Shown here: piece after piece, positions 869-47,613 of the stretch
Numbering within the stretch: position 1 is the stretch's first letter
Layout of the letters: the number at the start of each line of letters is the position of its first letter
From: Branchiostoma floridae
Taxonomy: Eukaryota > Chordata > Leptocardii > Amphioxiformes > Branchiostomatidae
Direction: 5' to 3'
Length of the DNA stretch: 64,000 nt
Assembly: GCF_000003815.2 (NCBI RefSeq)
Contig: NC_049981.1
Coordinates: 17,607,062 to 17,671,061 of the forward strand
Notes under the pieces: model-generated
Databases searched by the model: none
Told to the model about the DNA's origin: nothing
What the model saw: the letters and a program-made list of their open reading frames with translations, nothing else
Program-made: the position numbers and the translations under genes

Positions 869-3800
869 ATGTGTGTGAAAACTTTAAGTGTAGGAAGCCG
901 CCAGGCTCCATGTGTACCGTGGACTACAGTAAAGGCAAGCCCAGGCCCAAATGTATCTGTCCAACCAACTGCCCTCGGGTAAGTATTACTCTGGGACTGT
1001 ATATAGTGTTTTGCATGAGATGGGTGTTCTGCTTTATTGGACAAATTTAGTGGAAACGCTGCAATAATCCATTTTGCATTTTGGTGAGTTCAGTATACAT
1101 GAAGTTCTATGAATTGGGAAGTGAGGGGGGGGGGGGTGATGTACCTTGTCTTTGGTCGCAATTTGGGCGTTTTAGTCTGCATGTAGGGTATGACGGGAAA
1201 CCCCATCCAAATTACAGCGTGGGATAAAGTGCAACCAACGCAAACTGGTACGAGAAAACCAGCGAACAAAGCTGTGTGAAGAATAGCAAACTAAGCTGCA
1301 AACTGTTGCTTAGATAACGAGGTCAATTATTCACAAACAATAAAAAAAAAACATGATGTCACAGCAGACGTTTGGGTGACCGTCTGTCACCTTTCTCGTG
1401 ACAATTCTGATTGGTTCATCTTACACTCGTATGTATCAAGAAAGTTGGCCACTTTTTACATGTTATTGTATACACTATGTAAATACCTTGTTTGGGACCG
1501 TATTTGTAAGCAGCGACGCAGTACATTGTGAATCAGTCAGAGTCGCCTACATGTGACTTCATGTCCTGGTTGTGAATCAAAGAAGGTTGCTATCCAGTAA
1601 CTCTCCAGCCAGATGGAATCATTAACGAATGTATGTTGTCTGTTTGTAGGAAATGGAGAAGGTCTGCAGCGTGTACGGCCGCACGTTCGACAACATGTGC
1701 CGGCTGCACGTGGAGGCGTGCCGCAAAAAGAGACGGATCGAGGTGGCGTACCAGGGAGAGTGCATCGGTAAGTACTTGGGTTATTGGGGTGGGCAGACTA
1801 CCATCTTCGCTGTCACGGGCTGAATTACCAGGGGCTGAATTGCCAGGGGCTACGTTATCTCGCAAGTATCGCCTAATCATGTGCCAAAGCACCGAACCGA
1901 TCGTGAGATACAGCTGCGAACAGCAAACTCGGACAATCTGAAAACCTCCCGTCAGGAGGGGGCCCTCCTTTCCCGGAGGTTATCATTGATTAACATTAAA
2001 ACCATGCAAAGTTATACTCTCAAAGCAACTACAACGTTCTTATACTATTCAGCTCACTTTAGCATAAACGCCTTTGAAAGCCATTTAAAAGAAGCTGTAA
2101 TGTGATAAAGGTCAGTAGATGTCGCTGTCGCACGGTTTACGTGCGTTTATTCGGATTATCTCCGGGAAGAAGGTTTACCTCCGACGGAGGTACTGTTTTT
2201 GGTTGTGTTCGAACCTATAGATCAAGACGCTTTTGATGGTATGAATTCTAATATGCAAGTAGTTATTGAGGACATGAAAAAAACTTGTTTACGTACCGCA
2301 GCATTGCAAGCCGCCACCTCCTTTCTAAAAGTAGTGTGCCGTCAGTTGTCAGCTGGTCTACCCGGCGAGGTCAATAACCTTGTAAAATTGAGGAACAACC
2401 TTAATAGCGCACGATAACGCTATGGCTAGGGCTTTCATAAGGGTGAAAAAGAAATCCGCAGTTCATTTCCGGAAAACCAGTTAAGTTCCGGAAAACCCTA
2501 ATCATTTGAAGATATATTTACAAATGAATTGATACATTTTTCCCTTGAGTGTTGCTAACCAGACTATCCCTCCCTCCTTCCAGCCAAGCAGGAGCCGTGC
2601 ACGGAGTACGAGAAGTCGCAGTTCCCTATCCGCCTGATGGAGTGGTTCTTCCACCTGAAGGAGATAGACGAGTTCGGACACTTCAGTAACGTCACGTCCG
2701 GCGCCACGCTGGTCATGACTGACAGGGAGCGCGGCAAACTGGCGAAGGTCAGTAACGCCAGTTTGTACGGCCGCTGTTGTTTGTTCGGACCTCCAATATT
2801 GGCATGTAGTTAGCATTTAGATACTAAAGTAATCGCCGAGCAGATCCTAGGGTGCCATAAGATATCAAAGCAGGCCAAGGAGTATAGCCGGCCAAAGGGA
2901 GTCAGACGGCTGACCTCCTCTGGCCGCCATACTCCTTGGCCTACCGCCTGCTTTGATACTATCTTCTGGCACCGGGAATCTGCTTGGAGATTAGATGCCA
3001 AGCACGTCGGAGCACTAACAGGAAGTTTGGGGTTATGGTGGCAGAAAGGTCCCAGATAGGTGACAGGAAATTAAATTGACCCGATCCAGGGATTTCCCTC
3101 GGGCATTTCATGCATGTGTTTTATTTATAGGTATTTAGATAGACCAGAGATTATTGAAGATGAACCTTTTGGAAAAAGATTCACTGATGTATAAAACTTT
3201 GTTAATTTTTTTTGTTATTTTTATCCCAGTGGAAATATGACCAGCTCGACCGGAAAGGAGATGGCAAGTTGGGTCGGCGTGACCTGAAGGACTTTCGGTA
3301 TGCCCTGATGCCCATGGAGCATTGCGCCGAAGCGTTCTTCCGCAAGTGTGACACCAACAAGGACAAGGGAGTTGACATGGACGAGTGGAACACATGCCTG
3401 GGAGTTTACCGAGGTGCGACGCATACTGTACTTCTGTCCTGTTAACGTTAGTCCACGTGGATTCCTCTGGGAACCCCTAAACCCGGTGCGAGAGTGCGAA
3501 TAAAAGAAAAAAAGGGGGAAAGGGTTTGCTGGAAGAAAAAAAGGTTCCAGAGGATTAACAGTGGCGGGGGAGACACAAGTTATCTGGCACCTACCAAAAC
3601 CACTTGCCTATGACGTCACATAGCAGTAGACGGGTAAATCCTTCAGTTGAGATTTTGGGTACATGTAGGTCCCACTTCATCTGGAGTGTTTAGATAACGT
3701 TTGGTCATTTATCAGAAACCTTGAATTGACGTGTTTTCGTCCTTCAGATGCCGATGAGAAGAAAATGCAGATGGGCATGCTGGTGGAACCGGAAGCTCTG

Positions 3801-6800
3801 GAAGTTATGGTTGAGGCCAACTTCAAGGAAATGCTGGATAAGATGCCTGATGTGGGCATGCCGCCTGCATCCCCGCCTAAGGTACGGTTGACGAGATGGT
3901 CAGCTCATTCTTCACTCTCTAGCCAGTAATACACAATCTCTCACTGTCAGGGGGCTCCTCGCCGAGAGCTCATGGCCATTCACCTCTAACTTGAGAGAAC
4001 CATAGATTTAGCTATAGGGGATCAGGACTTTTTATCTATCACTATGCAAATTAGTCCAAAGGGAACTCTGGATTGTCTGTCATGGACATGGAATGTTGGA
4101 AGTGAGCCATCACAGCCTCCAATGCCGTGTTACAGGCAGGTCTCAGTCTGACAGGCTGTAAGTACGACTTTCCATTCAGTTTCGATAGGACAGTCGGCGG
4201 CAAACGTTTACGTGCCTTGACCAAACCAACTCCTTGACCAAACTGATTGAAGAGTGCCCTCCAAGCAGAGGTTGTTGTGGAAGCTTGTGACCTTCTTGTG
4301 ACATATATGCCCTTTTTTCCACCGGCCCCACCAACATCTGCCGGGGGGGGGGGGGGGGTCAAATGTGATGTGCCCTTACTTTTAGCAACTTGTGAATTTA
4401 TGGATCTAGGGCCGTCGGAAAGAAAACGGGACATGTGTTAAGAAGGTTACAATCTTCGCCAACAACCTCTACTTGGAGAGTGATTCAATACATGTATGGG
4501 TTAACAAGGGTTAACAACAGCAAGTCTGCCGAAGTTTGAGTTTGCCATGTTGTTCTCTCTTGCTGTATCTTTTGTGTCCGCCCGTCTAGTTTTTAGAGGA
4601 GGAAGATGACGATGACCAGTATGATGATGACTATTACGATGACGCCTTCGACTATGACGATTTCGACGTAATCGAGGATCCCGATGAAAAGAGGGACTTT
4701 GATGACAAATCTCTGACTGAAAAGCCCAAGCTTAAGGTCAAGGTGAAAAAGGCTTGGGATCAAATGACGGTGGACGAAAAGAACTGGGCCGAGGTGGACC
4801 GGATGTTGGGTTTTGATTGGCAGGAAACGGTATGACGTCATCCGCAGACCCCCAACCCATTCTCGTCAAGTCCTGTCCACATTAATCCAACCCTAACCAG
4901 TTACGACAACCCCGTTGTCTTGTCATGTTTTGTTTTGTCCTCTTCAACCGTGCTAAGATGTCAGCGGGCAGCCGAATCACCCGCTATGTCAACATACACC
5001 TTGAATGTCAGCTGATGGATTTAACTACGTTTGCTTGATTCCAACCTCACGCTCCCCATGATGAAACGCATCACTCCCCAATTCCCTTAATGCATCTTCT
5101 TAGTTTGAAAGTCCCTCTGTGTTGGTAAAGCTCATTCTGAATCAAAGTTCACCCGTAACTTCCAACATAAATAATTGGACCTTCCCAACTTTTGACTGAA
5201 TAACTCCAGTCTTTGTCAAATGAACACGCAATCACGGTATGCATAGACGGGGGGCACCATAGACATTCTGCAACTTATGCCCCACTACTCACAGTCTGAC
5301 GTCTTGTATCAGCATAACGCGACGTCGACGTGACACATCGGATGGACGGTTAATCATGTCTTGACAAAGACTGAAGTTGGGGATTTCTGTGTTGGAAGTT
5401 ACAGTTCAACCCTGATCCAGAATGCATATGCTGATAATCAGCGGCACATTACTGTACCCTGCTGAAGCATCTGTGCAGCGTTATAGGCAATTCGCTTGTC
5501 TTTGTATAGGAAAGACTCCTTTTGAAACAGCATACTGTTGTTATATATCGATTGTCTACAATCACAACCATTTTATCTTAGCCAAAAACACATCTAGTTT
5601 CACCAACTCTAAAACGCGGAGGTCCTGGGACCAAAACACTCAATGGTCGAGACGTGAACTGTTTACAAGTTAAGGGCATTTACCTTTCACATATCACCCA
5701 CAATCATGTCGCTGCACATGCGTACTCGCAACCGTGAATATGGTTATTGAACTTTTGAAAGCAGCAAGAGACCCACACCGCGCAGACTGGACAATTTTGT
5801 ATTTTCACGTAAGATCAGCAGATGCCAGTTTATTCCGATGACTTTCTGTTGATGTTAACTTTACATCTTATTTTCAGAAACCCGAGACTGACAAACCTGA
5901 GGCTGACAACTGGGCTCTGGTGGACAAAATGCTGAAGGAACAAGCTGACCAGCCGGCACAGCTTGTCGAAGGGGCTGAGGTACGTCACACGAACTGTCTC
6001 TAGATCTCAGCTGAATAAGTCTTTATTCCCAGCCAAGACATACAACCACCCCCCAATGATTCAGTGACCGTCTGTCGCCTTCCTCATGGCAATACTTGTA
6101 CTTTTTCAAACTGCAGCTATGTGTCGTTGTTAACAATGCTTGGAAACGCATAATTCACAATTATTCACGTTTTCAGTGACACCTAGCTGCAGTGTGGAAT
6201 ACTGCCAGGTATGCTTCGGTCATAGCTGAAAAAAGGGTCCCGCCGGGTAGTTTACGGGCTGTTTTGGAAATTCGGGCCTGACCCCTTTGTGGCCCTGTGG
6301 GACACCCTTTGGCTGCCGGGTTATTTGTGGACACGGTTGGGCACTGGGTTAATTTCATCTCGGAGTTATAATCAACCCTGGGCCCGGTAACAGATAGGCG
6401 CGGTACGCTAATCTTGACGAGCACACCGAGAAGGACTCCGCAGTATCCGGCAGTCCAGCGGGACAAATCTGTGGCTCCGGGGATCTGTAGAAAGATTCAG
6501 TACACAAGTAATCTAGCTTGCTTGTTTTTGGTTTTGACAAAGAAATTTGAATTCGCATTTTTTTGTAAATATTAACAAAAAGCCCCACGTAAACTATACA
6601 CTGTCATTATAGACTTTATTTTTATAGTTTTCCGCAAAGTCGTGCTCGAATGCTAAATACAAGTACATGGTATATACATAGGAGAATGTATAGTTGATTG
6701 ACATTATCGTAACAAAGGATAAAGCAAATGCTATTGTACTAGACAATTTGGGTTTGACATTTTTACAAGAAGAGAAAGACGGACATCCTCACTTTTCCTA

Positions 6801-11673: not shown

Positions 11674-11766
11674 TAATTTGAGTTTCATTGATACAATCGA
11701 ATCAACATACTGACACTGCGCAAATCTCCTACCGTCCTAGGAGCTTGTTCGAAGATCACTACTACA

Positions 11767-14332
11767 ATGTGTAATATCGGCCATGCCATGATTGGACTGG
11801 GAGCGACCTTGGTCATCCTGGGGGTCATCAGTATTTGCTACGGGATCTACGGCCTCGCAACCTTCCCGCAAAACTACTTCAACAGAGTCGGCGCACCCAT
11901 TTGGGCGGGCGTGTTCGTAAGTTTGTTTATGACAACATTTAATAACTTCAGAAGGTTCTGTTTTTGTCAATAGATAATGATTTTAGGAAGTTAAGAAAGC
12001 ATATTACTTACAGTATACTTAACAGTACCCAAAATTACAACTTTTACACAAGTCTGAAGTCCACGTGCGGAAACAGCTTATACCTTATTTTCCCGCTATC
12101 TATTCAGGTTATCCTTACGGGAGCCATAGGGATCGTGGCAGGAAGGAAGTTCGTGCGGGAAGGAACCAGCACCAAATTTGTAAGTTTTATTTTATTTCTT
12201 CCGAACAACTGAATGATGTTCCCATCCATTGGGGTATTGTTACCCCCATGAAAGATATCTATGAAGAATGCAGGTATTATTTTTGCGTAACTAAATGTGT
12301 CTGTAGGTGTTTGCGTTTGCGCTTATTTGTGATCAACTTTTAAGTTTAAAAATCCTCTGGATGGATGATAATGACATTTGGAAAGAAAGGGTCTTCTGAA
12401 GACAAATCCCAAGCACAATCCTTGGCCATCTAGTGGTTTTTCTTTATGCTGCAGCGGAACTTCCTGTTTTTGTAACTTAATTCTGGACATACGGGCATTC
12501 TAGACATGTGACGCCATTGGTTGTAAGTTCCCAGATGTACTAGTGAATATATAATGTGTCTCCTTGCATTAATTATTTATTCCGCCTTTATAGTCATCAT
12601 TAACTTATATCAAAGACTTGTGTTAGCCCTCATTATGTTATTTAGGATGTTAAGACTTATTCTTTATACCTATCTTTGTACTTTGTGTAATATTCGTTGC
12701 CATACTTTGTACCATGTGCAAATGTCGTGCAATAAAGTTCATACATATTAACCATCAGACGGCGGGTGGTATAAACTTCCTAGTACCTTGCTGACCGATT
12801 TCTCGCTGACCGTCACTCGTTCGTAAATAAGGTAACCTTGTTTTGCATTTATTCCTCAGACTGCAGCCTTCCTGACACTGAGCATCATCTGCATTTTCGT
12901 GGTGATGTCCCAAGTCGGTGTGTCCAGCTGGGGGTTGGCCACCTACGCGGACTGCTACCTTCCGTATCTGGGAAACTTTGACAGTCTCGACTTTGGGCTA
13001 AGCGAATTGAATTCGTAAGCAACGCCTTTGATCTGTTCCCTATTGTTAATTATCTAGAGGCTTTATGGATAACACCGCTAGTAAGTTAGGAAAATTGGGA
13101 AGATCTTCACCCTGTTGATTTATGCTCATGCACCAACAGTGACCAATTACCATGGTGTTGGAGGCCTTGGCGTTTGGTTTCAGAGAAAACCACTCCATTG
13201 GACTGATTTTCATAGTGAATGATCATAGAGCCCTATTGGTACTTCTGGACATTTGTAAAAAAAAAACAGTTTTATCTTGCATGCGGTTCATGACTGTGCA
13301 AACCAGTGATTTACCAACTTATGAAACTATCCACGGACGGAAATATCATTATGTTTACCTTCACAGAAGGGAAACATTGTTTTTGTTCAATTTCATCTTA
13401 CTACTGGACCAGAGAGCTGTCACCATGGTTACTGGTTAAGTAGCACACATCCTGCGGTGTTCTATTTACATGTAAATCTGTAACAAGTGGAAGGACAATG
13501 CTAGAGGGGCTGGTCATCATATGTGAATGGGTTTGAGTAAGGGTAAACAGAGTAATACCAATGCTAGGCTTAGATCATGTGAACGGGTAAGCACTATGTA
13601 ATTGATTGTAAATGTTTCTAGTGCATTAATCTACTATTAATGTTCTATCTGGGCTTAATGAAGGTACTGTTGGACCCTGATCTATTTTCACCGCGTCGGC
13701 GTGGTGGTAGGCCCGATGGAGATGCTCCTGTGTCTTGTCTCTTCTATCATCTGCTGTACAGCCTGCTGTACCTGCGACAACCAGGTAGGTTTGTTTGCTT
13801 ATTTGTATATATTACATACCTGGTATAAAATCCAATTTGATATTTAAATTCTGACGAATTTTATAAGTGTTTTTATCTTTTAAACATTTGGTTAACACCT
13901 AGTGTCTTTGCCGAATCTAATGTCAGTGTCTGTTGTTTTAGCCGGACTCAAGTGGAATGGTCATGCAACCAACCAACCCGCCCAGAACTGTCAACAACCC
14001 AGGTAACATTAGACTTGGCTAGCAATTTCAAGCCAGAGGGCAGAGCTTGAGGGGCTGGTCACCATACATTTGAATGTGTGTTTGAGTTGGAATAAACATA
14101 GCAGTAGTTTGCTAGGCCAGACCACATGAAGGTAAATTGTTATTTTTCTAGTCTTGATTGGCAATACGTACTTACATTTTCTAAGGGACAGCAAGTCTAA
14201 CAGAAACACATCTCTTCCCTACAGCAGTGCTATAATCCCTGCAGCCAGGCGGGCCTCCCTGAGTCCATGTCGCCAACTGGACAGCAGAATATGGTCTACT
14301 CTTGTCCCGGCAAACAGGCTTACCAGTACTAA
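11767..14332 (+). CDS. MS4A-like four-transmembrane protein
   Basis: Exons: 11767-11916, 12108-12179, 12860-13014, 13664-13784, optional 13942-14002, and 14225-14332. Four hydrophobic segments are visible: GLGATLVILGVISICYGI, then PIWAGVFVILTGAIGIVAG, a third around FLTLSIICIFVVMSQVG, and a fourth rich in V, L and C (MLLCLVSSIICCTACC). The pattern P-x-W-x-G-x-F-x-I-L/I-x-G before the second membrane pass is typical of the MS4A (CD20-like) family, which has short loops and cytosolic termini. Without the 61-nt exon the protein is 201 aa and ends in a Gln/Tyr-rich tail. With it the frame shifts and ends after 189 aa. The start ATG opens the first exon 93 bases after a MITE. Family placement is by pattern only, so another tetraspan family is possible. 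Confidence 0.72.
12560..12748 (+). mobile_element. Truncated LINE-like 3' end in an intron
   Basis: The segment ends in TGTACCATGTGC...GTGCAATAAAGTTCATACAT, closely resembling the segment that ends in an ATTC tail at 46633. The AATAAA next to a short tandem tail is typical of CR1/L2-group non-LTR retrotransposon 3' ends. No reverse transcriptase sequence is present; 5' truncation is inferred. Confidence 0.45.
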
Positions 14333-14570
14333 GAGCCTTTAACACAAGATTTACATTCATAGAGAAAGGCAGAGAAGTGCTTTGGCCTTATAATTACTCA
14401 AGCGTACATGTATATACTATGTAGATTTTGGAAAGGTAAGAAACTTGCTGTCCTTTTAAACATTTGCTTAAGTAAACTGTGTGGTAGTTCATATACCAGT
14501 TTATTGTTCACAAGTGCAAATGTGCATAGTATTGTGTATGGTCAAAATAAAGGTTCTTGAATGTCCAGGG
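14333..14570 (+). other. 3' UTR of the MS4A-like gene
   Basis: Non-coding sequence after the stop, with AATAAA at 14546-14551. The gene converges on LAMTOR3, whose own minus-strand poly(A) signal (TTTATT on plus) is at 14888-14893. Confidence 0.55.
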
Positions 14571-15231
14571 ACCTTAAACTTTGACCTTAGCCCAGAATAC
14601 ATTAGGTTCAAGCCTGCACGTGTGCACTTGAAACTGTGTACAGCATTGTCAGGTTATATTCCTTGCCTATCTATCTGTTGTACACTTTTCAATATTGACA
14701 AATAGGGCTTGTTTCAATTCCAATCACATTTATCAGCACAACAATGTGTGCAATATCGTACAGAATTGTGTACTAAGGTAAAGAAGAGGAACAAGCTTTA
14801 TGTGGCGTATAAATCTACATAAATTCTATGACATCGAAATACATTTTCAGATTCTCCAATTCCAAGTACAACACATTGCTTAACACATTTATTAGGGGTA
14901 ACTAATGAGTTCTGGGCCTCACCCAGAAATATGCATATCTCAAACTTTGGGGCATAGTTATTACATATAAAGCCTTTTATGAATGTCTACCAAAATTCAA
15001 ATCATGGTGATCATTTCTTAGCAGAGGACACCCTTTTTGAAAACCAGTATCGTTAGGTGAGGGATAGGGACAATCGCATTGAAGAGGCAACCGTAGTTAT
15101 GGATATAAAAGACTTCATATAATTGTCCCAACAAATGTGTGTTGTACACCTTATTTCTGGTGGGGCTATAAAACTATTGGTCGACCCACATAACTAGCAA
15201 AATTCATTTATAACCAGGTTGACCACGCTGG
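14571..15231 (-). other. LAMTOR3 3' UTR and convergent intergenic stretch
   Basis: A minus-strand AATAAA (plus-strand 14888-14893) would give LAMTOR3 a 3' UTR of roughly 360 bases. Part of this stretch (about 14920-15060) resembles 62100-62240 in word order (AGCCTTTTATG, TGTCTA, TTAGGTGAG), so it includes a dispersed repeat. Confidence 0.45.
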
Positions 15232-18200
15232 TCAAGCAACATCTACTGCTTGTCTGAGATCTTGCAGTGCATCTGTTAGCTCATCTTCCAGGCTGAGAAT
15301 CATTCCTGTAAAGTACCGAGACACTGGGTTAGTCTGACAGCTATGCAACTTTCCATTGCTATATCAACGACCGATCTATTCCATTTATTACCAAGCATTT
15401 CAGAACTTTTTGGGGGAACTGACAAGAAGCAAAAGTGTATATAAAACTACATTTCAATTACAAATGCACGACATTTGGTCGGCCATGTATTTCATTCCCA
15501 GCCAAGTCATACCAAAGAATGGTAGATGCTGCTTTCTTGGCTTTGCACTCAGCATTTGAGATATTGTAAAAGTATGGAAGTTGAACATACACACAACTAC
15601 CAGTGGATTAGCTCCCTGATGTAGTGCAGTAGAGATGTGTGGCCCAAGGGCTTGGGAAACAGAGATGGGCACTGTCCTATATGCACCATCTGGTGTGGGA
15701 AGGACTTTCCCTGGACTTTAACTAACAGCTTGTAGGAATAACATCATCAAAAATGGTTGCCTCATCGATCCAGGTAATACCCACAAGATGATCAATAGAA
15801 TTATAGAGCTGTATTTAGCTTTATTTCTGGGGATGCTGAATGGATTAATTTTATGACAAAACTGCAGCTTTCTCGGTTAGATCCAAGGCTTCGCACGACA
15901 TTACGCGATATGATATAAGAAGACAATTCACGCACTTGAATTATCTTATAATGACGAGCATTCTTTCATAACTTTCGTGGGATGTTCAAAATGTGTAAAG
16001 ACACCATGCGGATGTTTGTTGCCATTGTTTAGAATTGACTTTAAAGTTTTGTAATTATATGTCTAGGACATTTGATACTTCAGAAATATTTTTAACACTG
16101 TTTCAACTTTATAAATATTTCCCTGGTCCTGTAAAACTTTGGAAATATTCATGGTGTGGAATTGTATACTTCTAATGGTTTCTAAATAATGATAACAGCA
16201 TTCTACCATTATTTACCATTTTCTACCATTTTTTGTAAATGGTTCGGTGGGCTGGGAAGATAGCAATTCACACATCCTTGCAAAGTATGGTTGGGTGCCA
16301 TGCAACAATGGCCCACCACAAAGGATCCACCAGTGCCCAGCAGTGAAATACAGATGCAACAATAGGGCTAACTTTTATAGGGGCAATAAACTACTTTTAC
16401 CATTTGGCCAGGTTTACCATTTTTTGTAAATATTTGTAAATGTGAAATAATCACAGAGGTTTCACAATTATTCTAAATAAAGATATTTTTGTACAGTTAC
16501 TTTCAAAATGTTTCTGAAATATTCAAAGAAATTCAAATAAATGAGTATTTTCTTAGTCAATTTTTTGAAAATAATTTAATCATTGTGGCTCAGATATTCT
16601 TTTATTCAAAATAATTCAGACTAATTATAAATATCGCCTAAAAACCCTAATGGTGTCTTGGAATGGACTCTATACATTTTTTTTGTAATTTGCTTGAGGA
16701 ACATTTAACTATAATCATTAGTTATGATATTTCCTATATTTAGAAGTCTACTAGCATATCTATATGCAACAATAGTTATATACAAAATGTGTATTTAGAA
16801 TTCTTATATCTATAACGTTATATATGAATAGTTGTATATTATCTATTTTATAGAAGTCTATATCTATATACATCGCTTTGGGTTGCAGACTCTAAAGGTG
16901 TATTTTGTATGTCTATTTTGCAGTTGACAGTATAAAAGTTGCTGTACTTTTTGTTGTGTCAATAAAACTTCTTCAGAATCAGCATCATCTTCCTCCAATG
17001 ATAATTTCATACCATATATCTGGATTTGAGCATGGACCCCCAAGCTGAGGCAAGTCTCAAACAAAAATGCAGGACTGAAACATACAAACAAACAAAGGAG
17101 TGCTGATTGCTGCTTCTTGATGCTATATATGTAGCCGATGTAGGTGTGAGAACAAAATCCCACACCAAGTCTGGATAGCCAAGTCAGCCGGGGTTACCTG
17201 AGTGATGAACCAATCTAATCTAAGCCACATTTGGGATTGTGTTCTTGCCACAACAGCAGCACTTACATCACCAACATAGTGGCAAGAAGCAGCACTCCAG
17301 TCAGAAGCTCTGACAAAGATACCTGATTAAGAGCTTCTGACTGGAAACATTAGCAGGTGAGACACATTTCTGGTTGTGTAAAAGATGCTGACAGAAGTGG
17401 CCGTACCTGTGTTGGCTGTACTGTTGGCCACCAGGGTCACCATCAGGGGCGCCTTGTTGAAGTGGACAACCTAAAGAACAAAATAAGTCACTACAGTTGG
17501 CATTCAAACCAGTGAGCAGGCCATGTTGATGGTGATGATGATAGATATAGAATACAACATGGTGTATCCCATATCACCAGAGGTACCGCCCAACCACAGT
17601 GTGCATAAAAGTGGAAACCTCAGCCCAGTTTAGTCTTCCAAAGGTATATTGCATAGGCCACGGGTGAGGCTTGGCATATATAAAACAAGAAGAGGAACAA
17701 CTAAGTAGATAATTCGTATATAAATCAGGAAGAGGAGAAACTATTACCTGATAAGCTGAGTACATGCAGACTATCCGCTGGTTCTTCCCCAGTCCCATCT
17801 TACTGCCCTGGTCTGCAGCCATGGAGAAGGTGACCAGGAAGCCAGGTCTGAGGGCCATCTCTGGGGCATGCTCATTAGATACTGGGGGGGGGGGAATCAG
17901 CCTGTATCAAAGGAGTTGTGTGGCAGAGAGGCAGGGTGTTTGGCCTGGAAACCCAGAGGTCCTGGGTTCAAATCTGCAGATATGTCACCAATTTTGTGCC
18001 CTTGGGAAAGGCACTCAACACAACTTTCACTCAGGTGGAAAGAAGTACTTAGATTCAGTCAGGGCCATCCCTCAGATAGAACAATAAATAGAGGTCCCAT
18101 GTCCAAGAAGAGCCACACCTCAACCACATAAAAGAACCAGCCACACTTATCCAAAAGAGTATGGGTCCTTCCCGATGTGATCGTGTGTGGATCAAACTTT

Positions 18201-21200
18201 ACAGTCTGGTCACCGGGAGGCCTTCTTAAAACGGTGATAGCTGACTTTCCCAAGGATGGATTTCATGGCATTTTCCAATAAATAAGAGGGAATCGCAGAA
18301 TTTAGTGGGCATTTCCAAGTCGCAGTCAATGTTCAGAGGGTGTACAAGGAAAGTCAGCTCAAAAAGCCCTATCATAATCAAAACATGTTCAACTCCAATT
18401 CTGGATACAATGAGCAGATTCCAAACGTACTCAACAAAGATAGTCTATTATTTCTGAAGTCAGAGTAGTTAGATACAGAGTCTACGTACCTTTCAATACT
18501 GGCACTCCGTCCCGATCAGTTATCGCAATCCCATACAGTCCATCGACCCTGAGGATAAACGTAAAACATACATGAATGTTTCCACATCCATACAATCCAT
18601 TAGAACTTCAACATAGAACTTAGAAGTATAGCACTACTCTTATTTTACCAAGTCATGCTGAACAGAACAAAACTGCCAATGCACTTATGTTAACCTTCAC
18701 AGGAAACACAATGTTTTTCCTTTATTTCCTCAACTAGCTGAGGAATGAGTCCACTCTACTATATAAAAGTTAACTTTATCAAAAAACTTACTTTGACATC
18801 AGCCTAAAGATGTATCTCTTCAGATCCTGAGAGAGAACAAAGGTAATGTTACATATATGAGCAATCTGTTACAACCTTCACTATAGTTAACATTAAATAA
18901 ATGTGATAGCAGCTCATATCTAAACATTTGAATATTGTTTAGATCAGCTATTGCCTTCCGTACAGCCCGCCCACAGTTTGATCCAGTTTTCCTGAAGGAG
19001 ATGCTATCTGAGGCCAAAGCCCATGGGGACCTGGGGACCTGAAAGAGTAGCCAGCTGAGGTAGTCCACGACACTAGCCCAACCTCCTTGACCAGACAACA
19101 TTTTCCTGAAACCCATATTTCAATATCTTCTATCGGAAAACTTAAGCAGGCCCACTAGTACTCAGGATCAGGAATATCTTGCTATCGGCAGAAATACAGC
19201 TTACAACTGTTCACCTTAAATAATCCGTTTAAGCGTTAAGGTAGCAGAATACAGTTTTCGGCCTATGGGGCTTCCTATAGTTAAGTACCGTGGCCGACTG
19301 GGACAAAATGATTCTAACACTTCCGAGCCTAATTCCAAACGTCACGAGGCAGATTCCAACACTTCCGAGCCCAGTTCCAAACAGCGCGGCACATTCCAAC
19401 ACTTCCGAGCCCAGTTCCAATCGTGCCGCGGCAGGGTTTTCCAATCGTGCCGCGGCAGGGTTTTCCAAGCCTGCCGCGGCAGGGTTTTCCAAGCGTGCCG
19501 CGGCAGATTCCAACACTTCCGAGCCCAGTTCCAATCGTGCCGCGGCAGATTCCAACACTTCCGAGCCCAGTTCCAATCGTGCCGCGGCAGATTCCAACAC
19601 TTCCGAGCCCAGTTCCAATCGTGCCGCGGCAGATTCCAACACTTGCGAGCCCAGTTCCAATCGTGCCGAGGCAGGGTTTTCCAGCGTGCCGCGGCAGATT
19701 CCAACACTTCTGAGCCCAGTTCCAATCGTGCCGCGGCAGGGTTTTCCAAGCGTGCCGCGGCAGATTCCAACACTTCTGAGCCCAGTTCCAAACGTGACGA
19801 GGGCAGGTTTTTCCAACCGTGACGCGGGCAGATTCCAACACTTCCGAGCCCAGCTGTGGATATGCATCTTGGTTTCCCATCCATTGAAACAGATCACAGA
19901 TTGCAGCACAATGTAGAGTTAGTCTGACACACTTTCATATGGTGATCGTATTGTGATATTGATATTTGCTTTTTTGTATACTTGATTTGATAAACAAAAT
20001 CAGTTTTTTGTACTATGAGAAAGGGTAGAAACATCGCTAATTCAATTTTTTCATATGATTTGATTTCAATGTTAAAATTCAAGTCCACTAAGATACAAAG
20101 GAAGTCATTGTTTTTGCAAGCTTGGTGTATTATAAGTACAAATACAAATTTGCAGAGAGGAAAGAAGGGACTCAGGAGCTATCGTATGGCTGGGTACCAG
20201 GCTACTTTAAAAAAAATCTTGTCCTGAAATTTGTGTACGTTAAATTGATAGAAAAAAAGGGTACATTTGTATTTCTAGAGAGCTATGTTCTTCTTTAATA
20301 GCATGTAGTGATAGATTGTCTTAATGAAAGCTTTGCTGAAACTTATCAGTGGTGCATGTGGCATAGAGACACAGTAATGACAGACACTGCAGCTTAATTT
20401 AAGTCTGCTTCATTTTATTTAAAATTTTGACTGCACTAAAGAAATATCCTTTATGTAACCTTATCACTAAAATGTAACCTGGCACAAAGCATGTGGACAG
20501 AGCATCAGAGCAATGATTACAATACTTGAAGTTGGACTGTCAGTTGCTGTTGTTGTACATACAGAAGTATAAATTTCCATACTTTTTACCAATGCGTTTT
20601 GTGAACTATTTTGACACACACTAAAGGTTAACTTTGTGATGCCTTGCCTGAGTTGCCTCGTGTTTTTATTACTCATCATCATCATCATCATCGGTCGACG
20701 TGATCGCATAGCCGAAGCTAGGTACTCATTTTCACCTGAGTAAAGTCAGGAAAGCCGTCTAAAGTGCCTTTCCCAAGGGCACAAGATCGGTAACACAGCA
20801 CGGTCCCACTGCGCTACGCGGTCCCACTGAACCCATCATAATGTGCTAAATTACAGCGGACAAGTAACAGTTATAACAGTATAATTTATTCTGTTTATAA
20901 TTTCAAATATCCAAGGAGGTTTTATCGACAGGATTGATAAAAACACCTTGAATTAACACAACACACAGGCTTCTAGTCTAGTGGGTACAAAAAGAAATCG
21001 CCCCGGTACCGGTACAACTTGCAACTTCTTAGTACTGACGACAAAATAAAGCCGAGCTGTGACCCTTGACCCATAAGATAAGGGACCATCCACTATACAG
21101 TGAGCCGTGGTCTCGGGAGCCCAAAGCCCAGTTCACCCTGCCTCGTCACGTTTGGAACTGGGCTCGGAAGTGTTGGAATCTGCCGCGGCACGGTTGGAAA

Positions 21201-24200
21201 ACCCTGCCTCGTCACGTTTGGAACTGGGCTCGGAACTGTTGGAATCTGCCGCGGCACGCTTGGAAAACCCTGCCGCGGCACGATTGGAACTGGGCTTGCA
21301 AGTGTTGGAATCTGCCGCGGCACGCTTAGAAAACCCTGCCGCGGCACGATTGGAACTGGGCTCGCAAGTGTTGGAATCTGCCGCGGCACGCTTGGAAAAC
21401 CCTGCCGCGGCACGATTGGAACTGGGCTCGCAAGTGTTGGAATCTGCCGCGCTGTTTGGAACTGGGCTCGGAAGTGTTGGAATCTGCCTCGTGACGTTTG
21501 GAATTAGGCTCGGAAGTGTTAGAATCATTTTGTCCCAGTCGGCCACGGTAGTTAAGGACCGCAAGGTGACTGACATCGACGCGGATAAAATTATAGTAGG
21601 GTGCATTTGGGAAGCACGACAGACGAGTATGTTAAAGTGGAGGGTACAACGTACAAAATAACCAAAAACAAAAAAATATTGTGGTTTTTTAACATTGTGA
21701 CGCCCTCTTTGAAATAGGGTCATGCGGGGTCACCCGGAACTGCAGCCGACTCACTTAGACTGCCAGCTGTAAAGGTCACGCGTAGGGATGCGTACCTAAA
21801 CCCACGTTTAGGTACAGGTACGGATTCGAATCCAGAGGTTTAGGTACAGGTCCGGACCTAATGAGTCCGGACCTAAATGCATGGCATTGAATATTATATC
21901 ATAATATATTATGATATGTTATAACGGCAAAACAATGTATTAACTAGAGTTCCACGAACACATACCTTTGCCAATAAACCAGGTTTGTTATGTAGAATGA
22001 TGTCTGTAGACATAAATGTGTTACTCATTATATTTTATCTTAATATTTTATCTTATATGCCTGGAGTTGGTTCATAACATTTTGCCATTGCTTATACAAA
22101 TAAGATCCCTATTTACTTACTGATATTAGATTGTATCAAGCATCACTTAAGCTGTCAGCATACCAAAAATCATGATGATCCTTTCATCCCTTCTTGACTT
22201 ATTCTCTCTCAAAGTAGGAAACTAAACCGGCTCCTGCAGTTCAAGAAAAGATGTTAGCGGACCAAAACATACACCTCTTACTCTCCGCCATCTTTCTCAG
22301 TTACATATGTGACAAGTTTGAAAGTCCTATCATGGAATGCAGTGGATTTATCAACTTTCCTCATTAATTATGCAAATTAGATGTTAATTTGCATAACTAG
22401 TATCTCATTATGTAAGTTTTTACTTAGGCTATCTACATACCAAAAATCATGACGATGCGTTAACACGTTCATATTTTACATTAATTATGCAAATGAGATC
22501 ATCATCTGCATAATCAATATGTATTGATATTTCTTTCTTTCTCAGCTACAAATGTGTCAAGTTTGAAAGTCCTATAAAGGAATGCAGTGGATTTACATAC
22601 TTTCCTCATTAATTATGCAAATTAGCTGTCGATTTGCATAATTAGAGTTCCATTATGTAAGTCTTCCCTTTGGCTATCTACATACCAAAAATCATGATGA
22701 TCCGTCAATACATTATCGAACTTGACCTTCGTTTTCGCGACCCCTACCCACCTACCAAATATTATTGGGATCCATCCAAGGCTTCTCGAGTTATGCTGTT
22801 AACACACACACACACAGACAGACAGACTCACAAGCCCAAAACATAACCTTAGCCATTCTGGCAAAGGTAAAAAGGGTAGAAGCATGTTTGAACCAGTAAA
22901 ACGTGTTTATTATGGTAGACACATGATGCAACAAAAATTTGACCCTTGTTGCTTTTCCCTCACTGGGGCTCAGAGACTGCTATGGTGATTTCACAGTAAT
23001 TTTAACTGTCAAAGTGGCCATCCCCTAACCTGTTATCCTGCCTGGCTTGCACTAATTAGATACAGGTCCAGTACCGGTACACCAGGGTTCCGGTATTTTT
23101 GTATCTGTACCTAATTGATTGTACCGGTACTGTATCGGTACACTGTACCGGTACGCATCCCTAGTCACGCGTATTTATACAACGACAGGCCAAACTGAAA
23201 AATCTCATTCGTGCCACCTGAAAGCCAACATATTATGCTACCACACAATAAAGTTCACCCCTCGCTTACATGTACTTTAAGGTATTTACGAACGATTGAA
23301 GATTTCGACCGCACTATGTTTTGACCCCTACGTCATTGACGCAAGGCTACGCGGGTCACGGGTTCCTCACTGGGCTTCCAGTGACGAAAGTATATTCAAA
23401 ATGGCGTCATCACTGGACGCCCAGTGACGAAGAAAGTTCATCACTGGTTTCCCAGTGATGATTTGCTTTGTTCCAGTGATGAAGCTCTCTCGGTACTGGA
23501 ATTCCAGTGATGAACCTTGACTCGTCATTCGATTTCCAGTGATGAACTTCGCTCGTCACTCGGGGCCCAGTGATGAACTCCGCTCGTCACTCGGGGCCCA
23601 GTGATGACCGTCATTCGTCACTGGACACCGAGTGCGGAACCATCGAGGTCACCGGTTCCTCACTTGGTTTTCCAGTGACGGGTGACTCTTCGGCACTGGA
23701 TACTGAGTGATGAAATTATTTCGGCACTGGGCTTCCAGTGACCACGTTCTAACAGCACTAGAACGTTCCAGTTCTGAGTTCGATATGCAACAAAAACACC
23801 CTAATGTAATTCACATGTCGCCATAGCCGTGTTACTGTTAGATTTGGTCCGGGAGTGTGGGGACTTGCAGAGGCGACGTTAGTATAACTTTAAGTGCTAA
23901 CTTTGAAATCCCCTCAACTGAAACTATGATTCCTTTTTCATCAGTAAACTGAATATTTGTCATCACTGGTTTACCAGCTGAAGTTTCCTCATCACTGGAA
24001 AACTAGTGACGATAAATATTCCCCACTGGTAAGCCAGTGACGACGCGACTTCATCACTGGAAACCGAGTGATGAGAAATTTACCCGTGACCTCGGTAGTT
24101 TTGCGTAGAAATACTGTACTCTGCCGCCTTAAGTTACATGAAACTACAAAATTCACCTCGGTACGCCCCCCTCCCACCTTTAACATGATTTTACACTACA

Positions 24201-32300: not shown

Positions 32301-35300
32301 CATGTACATCATCCTCTGAAAATTTGGTGGTCATATGATAAGTAGTTTACAAGGGACAGGGCTAAATAGCATGTTTAAAACCTGTACATTTTGCTGGGGT
32401 CCAAATGAACCCTAGTCTGAATCGACACTTTCCTCTTTAGGCCACAGCAAGTAAATTTTATGGATGACATCCTCTGCAGACTGCAAAAATAACGAGATAG
32501 GGCGAAAAAAACAAGATGGGTAAAAAAAACAAGATGGCAAATTTTCAAAATAGACGTTGTAACAAGACTTGAAGTGACAAAATATGGCATCGCAGTCAAC
32601 AAGGCATTCATTCCTGTACTTAAGAAGTGCACAAGTGTAGCTTAAGTGACACTAGTATGGTAGACTAGTATCATTAACCATGTTGGCAACTACACTCATA
32701 GCTTCCATAGTTGTGCCACTTTTACAACTATCTATCAAGTTGCACCTCTGCAACTGCAGTCAATGCTACAGAGTCTCTAGTGTCAATTCTACATTCAATG
32801 ATTAGGTTACAACACAACCTTTACCCATTTTCGTCTATCCGGCCTTCCCTGAAGAAGAAAAAAATTCTTTTTTTTTCTGAAATCAGGCAAAAATTAATGA
32901 GAGCGCGGATGTCATCCATAAAATTTACTTGCTGTGGCCTTATGGATAAACTAAACTGTAACAGAAATAATTCAATTTTCCTCTTTAATTTCGCAATTAT
33001 TCTGTCAATCTCCGTAACATATAGATAGGGTTAAATGAAATTACTAAATGTAAATTTTGTCTCTCTGTTTCGTCCGAAACCCAATTTCCAGTGGTTGGCT
33101 ATTCGATACTGAACACACTGTGATCGCAAAACTGAGTCGGAGAGTTGAGTATATTACCGGTCTGGATGTCAACTGGCCGTATGGAGAAGCGTTTCAGGTA
33201 CAAACACCATGTTACGTACGGCATACAACAACTTTCGTATTGTCAATTCGACTTCACCTTCACTAATGCAGAAAGAGTCTCACGTGTCGACAGATGCTGT
33301 GGGCTTGTAACAAAAACATCGTACGGAGTACTAAATTATTTGCACCCGCCTCATGGATATCGCTTGATAGTTAATTCTCCAAGTGGAAAAAAAGATGTAA
33401 ATGCAGTGTAAACGAATGAATTTCATCTCGTTTTGTTGAGACCGCAAAAGCGCCTACGTTGTAACTAAACGTTTCTTTACGTTCGGGACCGTGTTGTTAA
33501 CAGCTTGGCTGCAGTGTTGCCATGAGGAATGTGACAGACGTGTTGGCTTAACTTGGCTATGTCTTTGTTGTGAATGACGAACCAGATTGTCCGGTGATAA
33601 CATTATCCATGGACGTTATAGTTTCACTGTTAAAAAGCATCCAAGTAATGTGCATTTATGTAGGAGTGGTTGTTATAATAAATGTACTTTCTTCTCTTGC
33701 TTATGATTTGCTAAATATGTTTCAGGTCCTGAACTATGGACTGGGAGGATTTTATGAGCCACATGTTGACTACTTCAGGGTAACGTTTGGTTTCTGCGTT
33801 TGAGGGTTCTATCTTATTGATAAATGATATAAATTAATGGACGAAATACTTGCCGGTAACGTCTATCATCAAATCTTTTTCCTCGCAATTCATTTTGTCT
33901 TCTGAATAGATCAATGGTTGCTGTCAATTCATTTGCATTCTCTATACAAACCCTCGCTAGCGGGTCATATGACATACTTCGGAGAATCTCTGCTTCACCG
34001 GGCTGAGGTTTCTACATTTCTCAACATGGTCTCCAGCTACCTGACAACCAATCAGATTATCATATACTGTATTGTATCAACAAATGTAAAAATGATTATC
34101 TGTTTGGCTTACGGGTAGTTAAGGGACGCGAATGTTGAAGTGGAAACAACCTGGTAGCAGAGCCTCTCTCAATGTACGTTATACATACTTGTTACGTGGT
34201 AACCATTGAGTAGTAAAAAATTAAACTTTCCTTAGTGCACATGTTAATGTTGATTTATTGTTCTTGCTCACACCCTTTAGGATGAACAGCCGGCGCTGCT
34301 GACTAACGGCCAAAGGATTGTCACGTTCCTATTCTATGTAAGTTTACATGGCTATGTCTGATGACAATTATAATTTTATCCGTCTTATGAATCTTCTTCT
34401 ACTAATCAAAAGCCTTAATCTGAAAAGCCTTGAAAGACGGGATGATGGGTTTCTCACTGTGAGCTTCGGCCTGTCCAAGTTGTTGTTGTTAATCCCAGGT
34501 CCCCGAATTTAAGAAATAGCCAGAGAGCGTATTTTTTACCTGAAAATCTACCCCATCATATTGGACAGGGCCCGAGAACCTCAGCCGATCCCTTGTAATT
34601 ACTGCCGAATGATTCAGAGATCACAGACTCGTCGCGAACCGCCTTTCCTACTGCGGGACAGGGAATGCGGAGGGTTAGAGATGATGGCTATTAATGATCT
34701 GGATTTATTATAAGCAACGTGTTTATCCAGAACGTGCACTTTGGGGAGGAGTGTTTTAGGAGATAGAAAATATCTACCAATAAGTATTGTACTTCGGTCC
34801 CTGAAAAGTTTTTTTCAAGGTCTTTCGACACACAAGACATCACATTTTTAAACTAGAGTTCCACGAACACATACCTTTGCCAAATATACCAGGTTTGTTA
34901 TGTAGAATGATGTCTGCAGACAAATGCGTTACTCATTTCATTTTCTTTATAATTATATGCATGGAGTTGGTTTATAAAATTTCGGCATTGATTATGCAAA
35001 TTAGATCCCAAGTTACAATTAATTGAAATCAAATTGTATCAAGCATTACTTAAGCTATCAGCATGCCAAAAATCATGATGATCCTTTGATCCATTCTTGA
35101 TCCACTCGTCTCTTCCCTCTTTCTCAGTTACATATGTGACAACTTTGATGAAAGTACTATAATGGAATGCAGTGGATTTATCAACTTTTCCTAATCAATT
35201 ATGCAAATTAGCTGTTAATTTGCATAATAAGTATCACATTATATAAGTCTTCACTAAGGCTATCTACATGCCAAAAATCAGGACGATCCGTCAACACGTT

Positions 35301-44046: not shown

Positions 44047-44411
44047 TTGCTTCATATTTTGTTCGATTTTGTTCATTTCGTTCCGTTTCTATATAACGTT
44101 ACTAGTATTCCATGATGATGATGTATTCCATTTCGCTCCATTTCGCACTTTCTGTACATTTAATTTCCTTCAATTTTGTTCCATTTCGTTCAGCTTTGTG
44201 TACATCCTGGAAAAGATGTTGATTGAGCGATATATACATTATAAGCGTTATGAAACTAAACTGATCTAACCACTGGAAGAGTTGGGACTTACCCAAAATT
44301 ACGGCTGACAAAATTAAGCTTGTTCACGGAATGGACTCTATTGCAGATTCCTGGACGTGACATCAGAAGTATGTTCAGCACAAGACCACAAGACTAACAT
44401 GTCTTTTATTA

Positions 44412-44928
44412 AGGCCACAGCAAGTAAATCTTATGGATGACATCAGCGCGCGCATTAATTTTCGCCTGATTTCAGAAAAAAACGATTTTTTTCGTCTGCA
44501 GGGATGGTCAACATGACGATAAAGTACCAAAATGAGCAAATATATTGTGTTGCAGCCTAATCATTGTAATTGTAGAAGTGACACTTGCGAGGTACCCAGG
44601 ACTGCAGTTGTATAGAAATGAAACTTATTGGATAGTTGTAAAATTGACACCAACATGGAAGCTATGAGTGTGGTTACTTTGTTGGTGATGCCAGTCTACC
44701 ACACTAGTGTCATTTTTGCCACATCAGTACATGTCTTAAACACATGAATGAATGCCTTGTTGGCTCTGATACCATGTTTTGTACTTTAAATTCTTTTTGC
44801 AACAGTCATCACAACTTTATGGTGCCTATTTTTGAAAATGTAGCCATCTTGTTTTTTTTCGCCCTATCGCACTATTTTTGCAGTCCTAGGAGGATGTCAT
44901 CCATGATTTACTTGCTGTGGCCTAATGT
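44412..44928. mobile_element. PIF/Harbinger-like TIR element, copy 2
   Basis: The left end reads GGCCACAGCAAGTAAATCTT and the right end ATTTACTTGCTGTGGCC. The 3-bp duplication TAA flanks both sides. The family is the same as at 32440, with the same subterminal GGATGACATC / GATGTCATCC pair and the shared interior words GAAGTGACAC and ACACTAGTGTC. Confidence 0.75.
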
Positions 44929-45360: not shown

Positions 45361-47613
45361 ATGGCTGCCCTGTTGGTGTTTGTTGGGGACCTCGTCACCA
45401 GAAAACGTCAGTTTCCCAACGTCAACGCGGTCGGAAACCCGTTCTCTGAGCAGCAGCTCGAGCGTTTCTGCTTCCAGCACGTTCCCGTGATCGGTGCCCT
45501 GAGCTACAGCGCTTTCTCCACCAACATCCTGGCATACAAGGCTTTCGATGAGTCCGTGCTTCTTCTTATGATTTTCTTTGGCCAAATGTCGTCTGCTAAA
45601 TTATGGCAACAAAAAAGTACAACAATCTTTATCATTACTGAATTTTGAAGAACTGGGTCCTTCCTAAGGATCTATGAGGAAATCTTGTGTTGCCACATTG
45701 GATGTCTTTACGAGTGTCTTTAACCTTCTAAAACAAGCTGGCCTACTTGTGTGAATGTGACCCAGCCGTAAATGGCAGCGATGCGTCACGCCCATGTTAT
45801 TATTTATGGGTGTGTAGACTCTCACGCCGTGTTATAGACATTAATACTGTCACGTACTCTGTACACTATTGCATCATCGTATCATCACAAGTCTAATGTC
45901 ATGATAGAAATTGAATCGTAGAATAACCAAAATGTATTTATTACCTTTATTGCCAAGAAGGTTAACGTTATGTTTTCAATATCACTATGTTGAAGCAGCA
46001 AATTACAAAATGTTTTAAAGTTATAGTATGATCCAGTCAATAACACTCTCAATATTTACAGGGTGGTCCTATTGACGTGACAGGAATACGTTTTGCATTA
46101 TTGACAAATTGATGATCCTATTGATTCTTCCAGTAACTATTGACAGGGTGATCCTATTGACATGAAGACTTTGGACTATTGACATCATGATCCTATTGAT
46201 CCTTCATCACTATATTCCAGTCAGTATTGGTAACGTTAGGATTGACAAACACAGCTCTAGATCTAATGGTTGAACAATGTTTTATAGAATTCGAAGTTTC
46301 TTTACACAATTAGTAGTCTCCAAGTAGCATTGCAGTGATCAAATTTGTACAGAACTGGGTGACTAGTATTTACAGAGCTCTGGTCATGAATCGGCATTGG
46401 AATACCAGTGTGGAAAACTATGGTTGACCTGTAAACTTGCCATTTGCTTCTTCCTTTTTCTATCCTCAAAAATCCATATTATGGCAATTGGACGTATTTT
46501 TGCTTTGTTGTTGTTTTGTATGTAGCCTCTTAGTACTATTGTCTGTATAGCTATTAGTTGTTATTGGTTGCCATAAATTGTACCCTGTGCGATTGTTGAG
46601 CAATAAAATTCATTCATTCATTCATTCATTCATATTTCAGATTGTTCAGCAGTCGACACCTTGTCGTTGCCAACTGTCTGTTGTTAAACTCCCATCTAGG
46701 CGTTGGGCTGTACCTGTTTAACACTCCTACTATCAGGGTAAGGACTGTACCTGTTTAACACTCCTACTATCAGGGTAAGGACTGTACCTGTTTAACACTC
46801 CTACTATCAGGGTAAGGACTGTACCTGTTTAACACTCCTACTATCAGGGTAAGGACTGTACCTGTTTAACACTCCTACTATCAGGGTAAGGACTGTACCT
46901 GTTTAACACTCCTACTATCAGGGTAAGGACTGTACCTGTTTAACACTCCTACTATCAGGGTAAGGATATCGACCAAAGTGATCAAATATGTCCAGTTTAT
47001 CAATGTAAAACCAAAATGCATCAGGACACTTGTATTTTGATCATACATAATTATATGAAATATGCATTATAAAACTATATTAATAAACTGAACAAAGCAG
47101 TACAATGTTAACCACACATTTGTACAGCAACTATTCAAAGTGCGAAGCAAGTCTGTCAGGAAATTCATCAAATTGAAAATTTTATGTCCCCTGCTAGCGG
47201 TTCACCCTCACCAAAGACTTGACTTGCATTAGCAGGTTTTTCTTAAGGTTTGTTGGGTGACCAAAAACATGACATTTGTTTTTTTTCTAAATATAACAAA
47301 AGAATTTGTGTACATGTTGATTTTCTTAAAAGTAACAAAAATAGCTATATAGAAATGGCGTTCCCTCTTCTTCCTCCAGGCAGCGAACGCACGCTGGCGA
47401 GTGGCATGGAGTGTGTATGGCAGCGCTATGTTCAACTTTGGCTCCATCTTGCTGTGGGCAACAGTCAAGGAGATCATCCCAGAGAATGCGGTCCTTAGGG
47501 TTGGCTTCGGTGTCCTGTCCAGTGTCTGCTTCCTCCTGGTAGGGAAGAAGTACTTGGACCACGTGGACAGAAAACTTGCCAAGTCAAAACCAAAGGCAGC
47601 AGAACAAAAATGA
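45361..47613 (+). CDS. Unidentified small four-pass membrane protein
   Basis: Exons 45361-45551, 46641-46737 and 47380-47613 give about 173 aa. The start ATG follows GTAGACATC and has a G at +4. Hydrophobic segments are HVPVIGALSYSAFSTNILAY, HLVVANCLLLNSHLGVGLYLF, WSVYGSAMFNFGSILLWATV and VLRVGFGVLSSVCFLLVG. The tail is Lys-rich and ends AAEQK, with no ER or lysosomal sorting signal that I recognise. The exon 1 donor (GA|GTCCGT) is non-ideal but is the phase-2 site that keeps the frame. The exon 2 donor (GGTAAGG) is good and is duplicated in a minisatellite. AATAAA is at 47845-47850. I do not recognise the family. Clean splice phases and four even membrane segments argue it is a real gene. 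Confidence 0.68.
46470..46633 (+). mobile_element. LINE-like 3' end with (ATTC)n tail
   Basis: TTGCCATAAATTGTACCCTG...AATAAAATTC followed by ATTC repeats (about 46608-46633) is the 3' end of a non-LTR retrotransposon like the one at 12560. It stops seven bases before the 3' splice site of exon 46641-46737. Confidence 0.5.
46701..46975 (+). repeat. 37-bp minisatellite containing a 5' splice site, seven copies
   Basis: The last 30 or so coding bases of exon 46641-46737 plus its donor GGTAAGG are repeated seven times head to tail, exactly 37 bases apart (GTACCTG at 46710, 46747 and so on to 46932). The first copy is the exon end. Six extra donors therefore lie in the intron. Because 37 is not a multiple of three and the added frame soon reaches TAA, only the first donor keeps the full protein. 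Confidence 0.9.

Follow-up and report, generated by a model that had tools for sequence, protein, structure and literature searches.

Foldback transposons are DNA transposons with inverted arms that contain internal tandem repeats; the classic representatives, sea urchin TU and Drosophila melanogaster FB, carry short tandem repeats in their arms. Foldbacks have mostly been associated with Mutator, although there are exceptions, among them the P-type Galileo (PMC4079207, which also mentions the foldbacks of sea urchin and D. melanogaster). Binding sites of the transposase THAP domain have been identified in the arm repeats of Galileo (PMC3688188), and Tetris of Drosophila virilis combines modular tandem-repeat arms with the lack of a coding copy and with repeats that can seed satellites (PMC4079207). 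A superfamily that is relevant for a different reason is IS3EU, the termini of which are always TA..TA and the target-site duplications of which are usually 6 bp long (PMC10045372); the IS3EU elements of rust fungi have TAYGG..CCRTA ends, 6-bp duplications and inverted repeats longer than 30 bp (PMC12730594). Here we describe a 2265-bp foldback DNA transposon from the amphioxus Branchiostoma floridae, located at positions 19286-21550 of a 64,000-nucleotide stretch (hereafter, the window: assembly GCF_000003815.2, contig NC_049981.1, positions 17,607,062 to 17,671,061 of the forward strand). This appears quite probably to be a non-autonomous element that is moved in trans by an enzyme of a likely IS3EU/GingerRoot type and the arms of which are renewed by unequal exchange.

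The 19-bp terminus TACCGTGGCCGACTGGGAC is present as exact matches at 19286-19304 (plus strand) and 21532-21550 (minus strand), and even when 3 mismatches are allowed the window contains no further match (the maximum in 100 shuffles being 0); the hexanucleotide GTTAAG adjoins both ends of the element (19280..19285 on the left and 21551..21556 on the right). The inverted termini coincide exactly with the limits given in the preliminary description of this locus, which recognized a foldback-type element, an assignment that is supported by the long inverted arms and the comparison of 17 copies reported below. The arms are identical over the first 106 bp from the terminus, with the first mismatch at base 107; repeat finding delineates inverted arms of 178 nt at 98%, five flank bases on each side included. 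The left arm is 568 bp long and the right arm 417 bp; both contain internal tandem repeats and together they enclose a core (19854..21133) that varies among the copies.

A search of the B. floridae genome (513,431,437 bases in 431 contigs) returned at least 136 matches, including the window's own; a lack of other copies with the same ends, the first refuting outcome named in the preliminary description, did not occur. Beyond this genome, viral contigs yielded no exact terminus match and two isolated single-site matches to the unit pattern, prokaryote contigs yielded two exact terminus matches, which is about the chance expectation by our estimate, and plasmids yielded no match. Among the 28 stretches that were fetched, 12 carry both ends and 8 were joined into four long copies, which together with the window make up a set of 17 two-ended copies; the stretches left uncounted are L029, with a degenerate end, L020, L034, L035, L036, L037 and L040, with one end each, and L024, with none. 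All 17 copies start with TACCGT and end with its complement, which is in part true by construction because they were picked by terminus match.

An exact 6-bp direct repeat, never a longer one, flanks 14 of the 17 copies: GTTAAG in the window and GAAACT, CTTATA, AAACTA, GAATTC, AATATC, CTATGG, CGTTTG, CTGGCA, GAAATG, GAAAAC, TGTTTC, GTTTAT and AGTAGG elsewhere. With equal base frequencies, the chance of at least 14 exact duplications in 17 copies is about 1.8e-48. The four long copies weigh less in this count because they were paired after their matching flanks had been seen; without them, the duplication is exact in 10 of 13 copies. When both strands are considered, positions 2-5 of the duplication are mostly A/T (21, 25, 25 and 21 of 28, respectively) and the outer positions are mostly G/C (19 of 28), which weakly suggests a target preference for an A/T center with G/C edges that GTTAAG fits.

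The GTTAAG flank had been presented as either a 6-bp duplication or TTAA with a variable first base, the latter pointing to a TTAA-targeting element of the piggyBac or Kolobok type. The window copy does contain TTAA on both sides; however, among the 14 exact duplications TTAA occurs in this one alone, and GTTAAG is thus to be taken as a duplication of 6 bp. Moreover, if the element is taken to start directly after TTAA, its ends disagree in their first base (G vs C). Kolobok is characterized by TTAA duplications and RR..YY termini (PMC9587614), and piggyBac by CC..GG termini (PMC10045372) and TTAA duplications (PMC9587614); neither type of terminus corresponds to TA..TA, and we rejected both candidates, the probability left to a TTAA-targeting element being practically negligible. 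Nearly as improbable is a satellite or minisatellite locus that was inverted by rearrangement rather than brought about by transposition. The arms are indeed tandem arrays, and there is a real satellite, of period 112, with a related terminus in each unit (C4:28161050-28161820), but exact 6-bp duplications flank 14 of the 17 copies at separate places in the genome, and the conserved ends lie outside the arrays.

Like IS3EU/GingerRoot elements, the window element combines TA..TA termini, 6-bp duplications and inverted repeats longer than 30 bp, and its terminus, TACCG..CGGTA, is close to the fungal TAYGG. Among the superfamilies compared, the combination of TA..TA with 6 bp is given, in the excerpts available, for IS3EU/GingerRoot only. 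Because both the termini and the duplication length fit, an IS3EU/GingerRoot-type enzyme is the most likely one, and the element likely works like an IS3EU element, a placement that is structural only. An unlikely but not trivial alternative is a foldback of another superfamily that yields 6-bp duplications, related to MuDR or to hAT6, in which TA..TA would have arisen by convergence. The hAT terminus consensus is YARNG, and TACCG, which has a C where R is expected, seems to misfit it; MuDR-type elements employ a MuDR transposase and typically produce 8-10-bp duplications. In favor of this alternative, the 6-bp duplications fall inside the range of 4-10 bp quoted for MuDR together with IS256 (PMC10045372) and match the 6 bp of hAT6 (PMC12730594), and the lack of a transposase in the scanned frames is compatible with it; against it stands the above restriction of TA..TA with 6 bp to IS3EU/GingerRoot. 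Dada, another option with a 6-bp duplication, inserts into small-RNA genes and lacks inverted repeats at its termini (PMC3706591), whereas the window element has terminal inverted repeats and no Rfam family reaches the gathering score in the window; this candidate was also discarded.

Several observations weigh against assignment to IS3EU/GingerRoot. Three of the 17 copies lack an exact duplication (L018 matches at 5 of 6 positions, L013 at 4 of 6 and L016 at 2 of 6), and among nine two-ended relatives that share the 12-bp start of the terminus (see below), the 6-bp duplication is exact in just three. Unlike the fungal TAYGG, the terminus of the window element has C, not G, at position 4. A transposase gene with these ends was not found in the scanned frames, and no integrase-type Pfam domain was detected in 10 frames of the C13 copy and 10 of the C1 copy. 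Finally, the genome contains 135 matches to the integrase domain (rve); the 103 that were compared with the 107 termini among the matches listed all lie at least 15 kb away from these.

A full copy with a transposase between the arms, as envisaged in the preliminary description, was sought among the relatives as well and was not found. In the window element itself, none of the 10 open frames scanned, of which 8 belong to the core and 2 to the arrays, has a Pfam match above the cut-off; accordingly, protein coding by the arrays was rejected. That the array frames are open is probably due to the common unit lengths (21, 24, 42 and 66), all of them multiples of three. A crude regular expression for an integrase-like motif had no match in the 17 copies and in L049-L055; for the C7 and C9 copies, this was the sole scan. 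Among the long relatives considered as potentially autonomous and dismissed are the following: C1, the 10 scanned frames of which gave just a reverse-transcriptase fragment above the Pfam cut-off; C13, in which a frame resembling DDE_Tnp_4 remains below the curated cut-off (22.4 vs 24.8 bits) and was taken for a nested foreign element; and L071, in the scanned frames of which no transposase was found with Pfam and the interior of which proved to hold a host gene. On C15, the pair L067/L070 was likewise dismissed as an autonomous copy, being a degenerate single end with no partner in 8.7 kb.

The core differs among copies with the same ends. The part at 19854-21109 is 97.7-98.0% identical to the window copy in L013, L014 and L015, the last of which has an extra 6 kb; in L016-L019, the core is incomplete, partly replaced or interrupted by an insert. 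The long copies on C7 (L041+L042), C9 (L043+L044) and C1 (L047+L048), 10.0-12.9 kb in size, have in common approximately 7.5-8.9 kb of other DNA (94.6-96.7%), beside pieces of the same core. Each of the three has a separate 6-bp duplication, and therefore long cargo is moved as well. Where the 8.2-kb cargo of C1 meets the core, there is an A-run and there are no inverted ends, so that insertion into the core and deletion from it would both fit. The shared cargo includes part of a reverse transcriptase, for which Pfam gave confirmation in C1. In the window, the core has 37.5% GC (over 19854-21110) and contains a fragment of a dispersed repeat (20714..20795; 74% to window 17983-18056, minus strand).

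The arms are composed of three types of monomers, A (21 bp), B (21 bp) and C (24 bp), most of which start with TTCCAA; the C unit is an A-type unit with a GGGTT ending. The 10-bp palindrome TGCCGCGGCA is present in most A units, and all 17 of its occurrences in the window are inside the element. Each arm opens with an identical 26-bp outermost segment, the terminus TACCGTGGCCGACTGGGAC followed by AAAATGA (19286..19311 on the plus strand and, inverted, 21525..21550 on the minus strand). Next come a left array of 25 monomers, BABABCCCABABABABCABCABCAB (19312..19853, plus strand), and a right array of 18 monomers, BABABCABCABCABCABC when read from the right end inwards (21134..21524, minus strand). 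This parse explains the 42-bp and 24-bp units described previously, the 42-bp unit being an A+B dimer, and the reported counts of about ten such units on the left and about seven on the right agree with 10 and 7 B monomers, respectively; 66-bp C+A+B trimers occur in the arms as well. The A and B monomers agree in 12 of their 21 bases, which suggests a common ancestor; we go no further than this because shuffles of B reach the same match level (466 of 200,000 in a fixed register and 2568 of 50,000 when all 21 registers are allowed).

Across 34 arms, which range from 47 to 747 bp in length, we delineated 529 units (226 B, 194 A and 109 C), of which 352 are 21 bp long and 177 are not. The order of the units is highly regular: of 189 exits from A, 187 lead to B; B is followed by A in 111 cases, by C in 100 and by B in 2, and C by A in 81 cases, by C in 9 and by B in 3. 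In-register unequal exchange or slippage would best account for the variation of array length. The arms have a GC content of 58-59% and a CpG observed/expected ratio of 1.02-1.03, vs 0.63 in the window and 0.56 in the core. As single-stranded DNA, a 114-nt part of the left array is predicted to self-fold far above shuffles (z -8.6), whereas no such excess is seen for one A+B dimer on its own (z 0.46) or for the 67 nt at the outer end of the arm (z 0.84).

Genome-wide, the 19-bp terminus with up to 3 mismatches produced 64+74 matches, vs 40+41 for the reversed pattern, and it is exact at 37 of the places listed. The weaker matches pointed to a common 12-bp start, captured by the pattern TACCGTGGCCGAYANNNAC, which has 80+77 exact sites vs 0+0 in the reversed-pattern control. 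Of these TACCGTGGCCGA ends, 157 sites were counted, 100 of them among the matches listed, and 11 of the 100 fall in two satellite arrays on C4. The first array, L078, is the period-112 satellite mentioned above, with 6.9 copies and the terminus TACCGTGGCCGATAGATAC in every unit; the second extends from C4:28653884 onwards, and in both TACCGTGGCCGATAGATAC looks like an amplified transposon end.

Among the nine two-ended relatives examined (L056, L060 and L071-L077), the exact duplications are CAATTC in L071, CAATAG in L073 and CTCCTG in L074; L076 has a 7-bp repeat, ATAGGTC, identified by eye, L072 a shifted repeat, and L075 and L077 match at 5 of 6 positions, and no duplication was found in the flanks of L056 and L060. 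Under the Repbase rule, two non-autonomous elements belong to one superfamily when their duplications are of equal length and positions 1-11 differ by at most one mismatch (PMC4455052); this rule therefore groups the window element with L071, L073 and L074. L060, about 173 bp long, lacks an array, and L072 consists mostly of N in its interior; the arms of the eight relatives other than L060 are arrays of a different sequence, approximately CAAGACACTTACTTTTCTGCT, and because this single array type is common to all eight, they represent one further sub-clan rather than eight. Tandem Repeats Finder reports a row of period 21 in seven of these eight, the exception being L076. The CAAGACACTTACTTTTCTGCT-type unit shows no likeness to A and B above shuffles (11,696 to 19,149 of 20,000 do as well), and the 17 copies have no blastn match at E 1e-3 to L056 and L073-L077. 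Among one-ended relatives, an array close to the end is missing in L059, L061 and L062, and repeats of period 20 and 11 occur further inside L063.

Some single ends are of separate interest. L064, L065 and L066, at three places on C8, share 29 of the first 30 bp with the window element, followed by non-array sequence, and have near-identical outer flanks, which suggests a duplicated locus with one end. L067 (C15:1542659) is a degenerate relative that has the same terminus with one mismatch, a few decayed units discernible by eye and then sequence resembling the right core edge of the window element; possibly, it is an older short-array form.

The relative L071 (C2:3461488-3467620, within the stretch C2:3461400-3467720) is 6133 bp long and is flanked by CAATTC on both sides; its arms, with the 21-bp period, and about 500 bp of its core resemble L074 (84.6% over 824 bp). 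Frames in its interior match the solved human ethanolamine-phosphate cytidylyltransferase (3elb) with E 2.8e-111, two frames contain the CTP_transf_like domain of Pfam, and the element thus holds exons of this enzyme. Other cytidylyltransferase copies are located on C8 (97%) and, at two places, on C7 (94% for the copy at 4.92 Mb, 80% for that at 24.28 Mb); of the 140 genome matches that remain, most correspond to the last approximately 24 residues of the query frame, which represent a dispersed repeat. In two 601-bp stretches at the distance expected from L071, the C8 copy is not flanked by this element. Part of L071 is masked by a run of N at 3412-4773. Instead of gene capture by one element, two solo elements may flank the gene; the exact 6-bp duplication favors one unit. 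L071 thus suggests that such elements can duplicate host genes.

The mechanism that we propose builds on the ends, the duplications, the several core types between the same ends and the array length variation observed here. A transposase supplied in trans, most likely an integrase-like DDE enzyme of the IS3EU/GingerRoot type, would recognize the common terminal 12-19 bp, cut at the TA..TA ends and join these to staggered 6-bp target sites. Arm length would change in both directions through in-register slippage or unequal exchange, and the units of the arrays are predicted to provide extra docking sites, by analogy with those reported for Galileo, with the core serving as passive cargo that may be replaced by host or repeat DNA. 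An extension of this scheme that we put forward tentatively, and on balance rather doubt, is that the 12-bp TA..TA clan built arms with a 21-bp period at least twice, from sequences not detectably related, that the arms are helically phased docking platforms for an IS3EU enzyme in which the period rather than the sequence is conserved, and that whole segments with host genes can be carried. Indeed, 21 bp corresponds to two turns of the double helix, and the sequence of the array differs between the sub-clans, with the terminus and the 21-bp period retained, which fits a spacing role over a sequence role. Conversely, the 24-bp C units and the 66-bp trimers break strict phasing, 177 of the 529 units deviate from 21 bp, and a simpler explanation of the period is slippage of a unit that happened to be 21 bp long in each sub-clan.

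The window contains several other features. An element of about 500 bp, similar to a miniature inverted-repeat transposable element, is present in two copies of opposite orientation (32437-32942 and 44410-44925; 75%), the inverted ends of which have AGGCCACAGCAAGTAAAT in common. A 37-bp unit repeated seven times at 100% matches (46708-46966) is a very young minisatellite, and 336 bp of AGGGTT hexamers (57127-57462; about 56 copies, 78% matches) form an interstitial telomere-like array. An open frame at 29740-30315 matches the Pfam family P4Ha_N (E 1.4e-06), which represents the N-terminal part of the alpha subunit of prolyl 4-hydroxylase.

Our literature search retrieved no paper on a foldback transposon in amphioxus, and IS3EU and foldback came up together just through a cited title with the word 'foldback'. 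The available passages that mention Branchiostoma and IS3EU (PMC4455052, PMC4438587, PMC9587614) contain no such element; Repbase may name the family. IS3EU-type footprints in a clan of foldbacks would point to this architecture arising in the integrase-like lineage too, and two unrelated arrays with one 21-bp period would make the function of foldback arm repeats testable. In a comparison by description, the window element is similar to TU and FB, the duplications of which are 8 and 9 bp long, respectively. It is also like Galileo (Drosophila, P superfamily) in its long inverted arms with internal tandem repeats; unlike the window element, Galileo is a relative of the P element with a THAP-domain transposase, and its duplication is 7 bp rather than 6 bp. 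By the same type of comparison, the element resembles Tetris in its modular arms with tandem repeats and in that a coding copy was not found, the difference being that the repeats of Tetris are TIR-220 and its ends are in common with DAIBAM (PMC4079207). Unlike IS3EU/GingerRoot elements, with which it has the termini and the duplication length in common, the amphioxus element has arms that are modular arrays.

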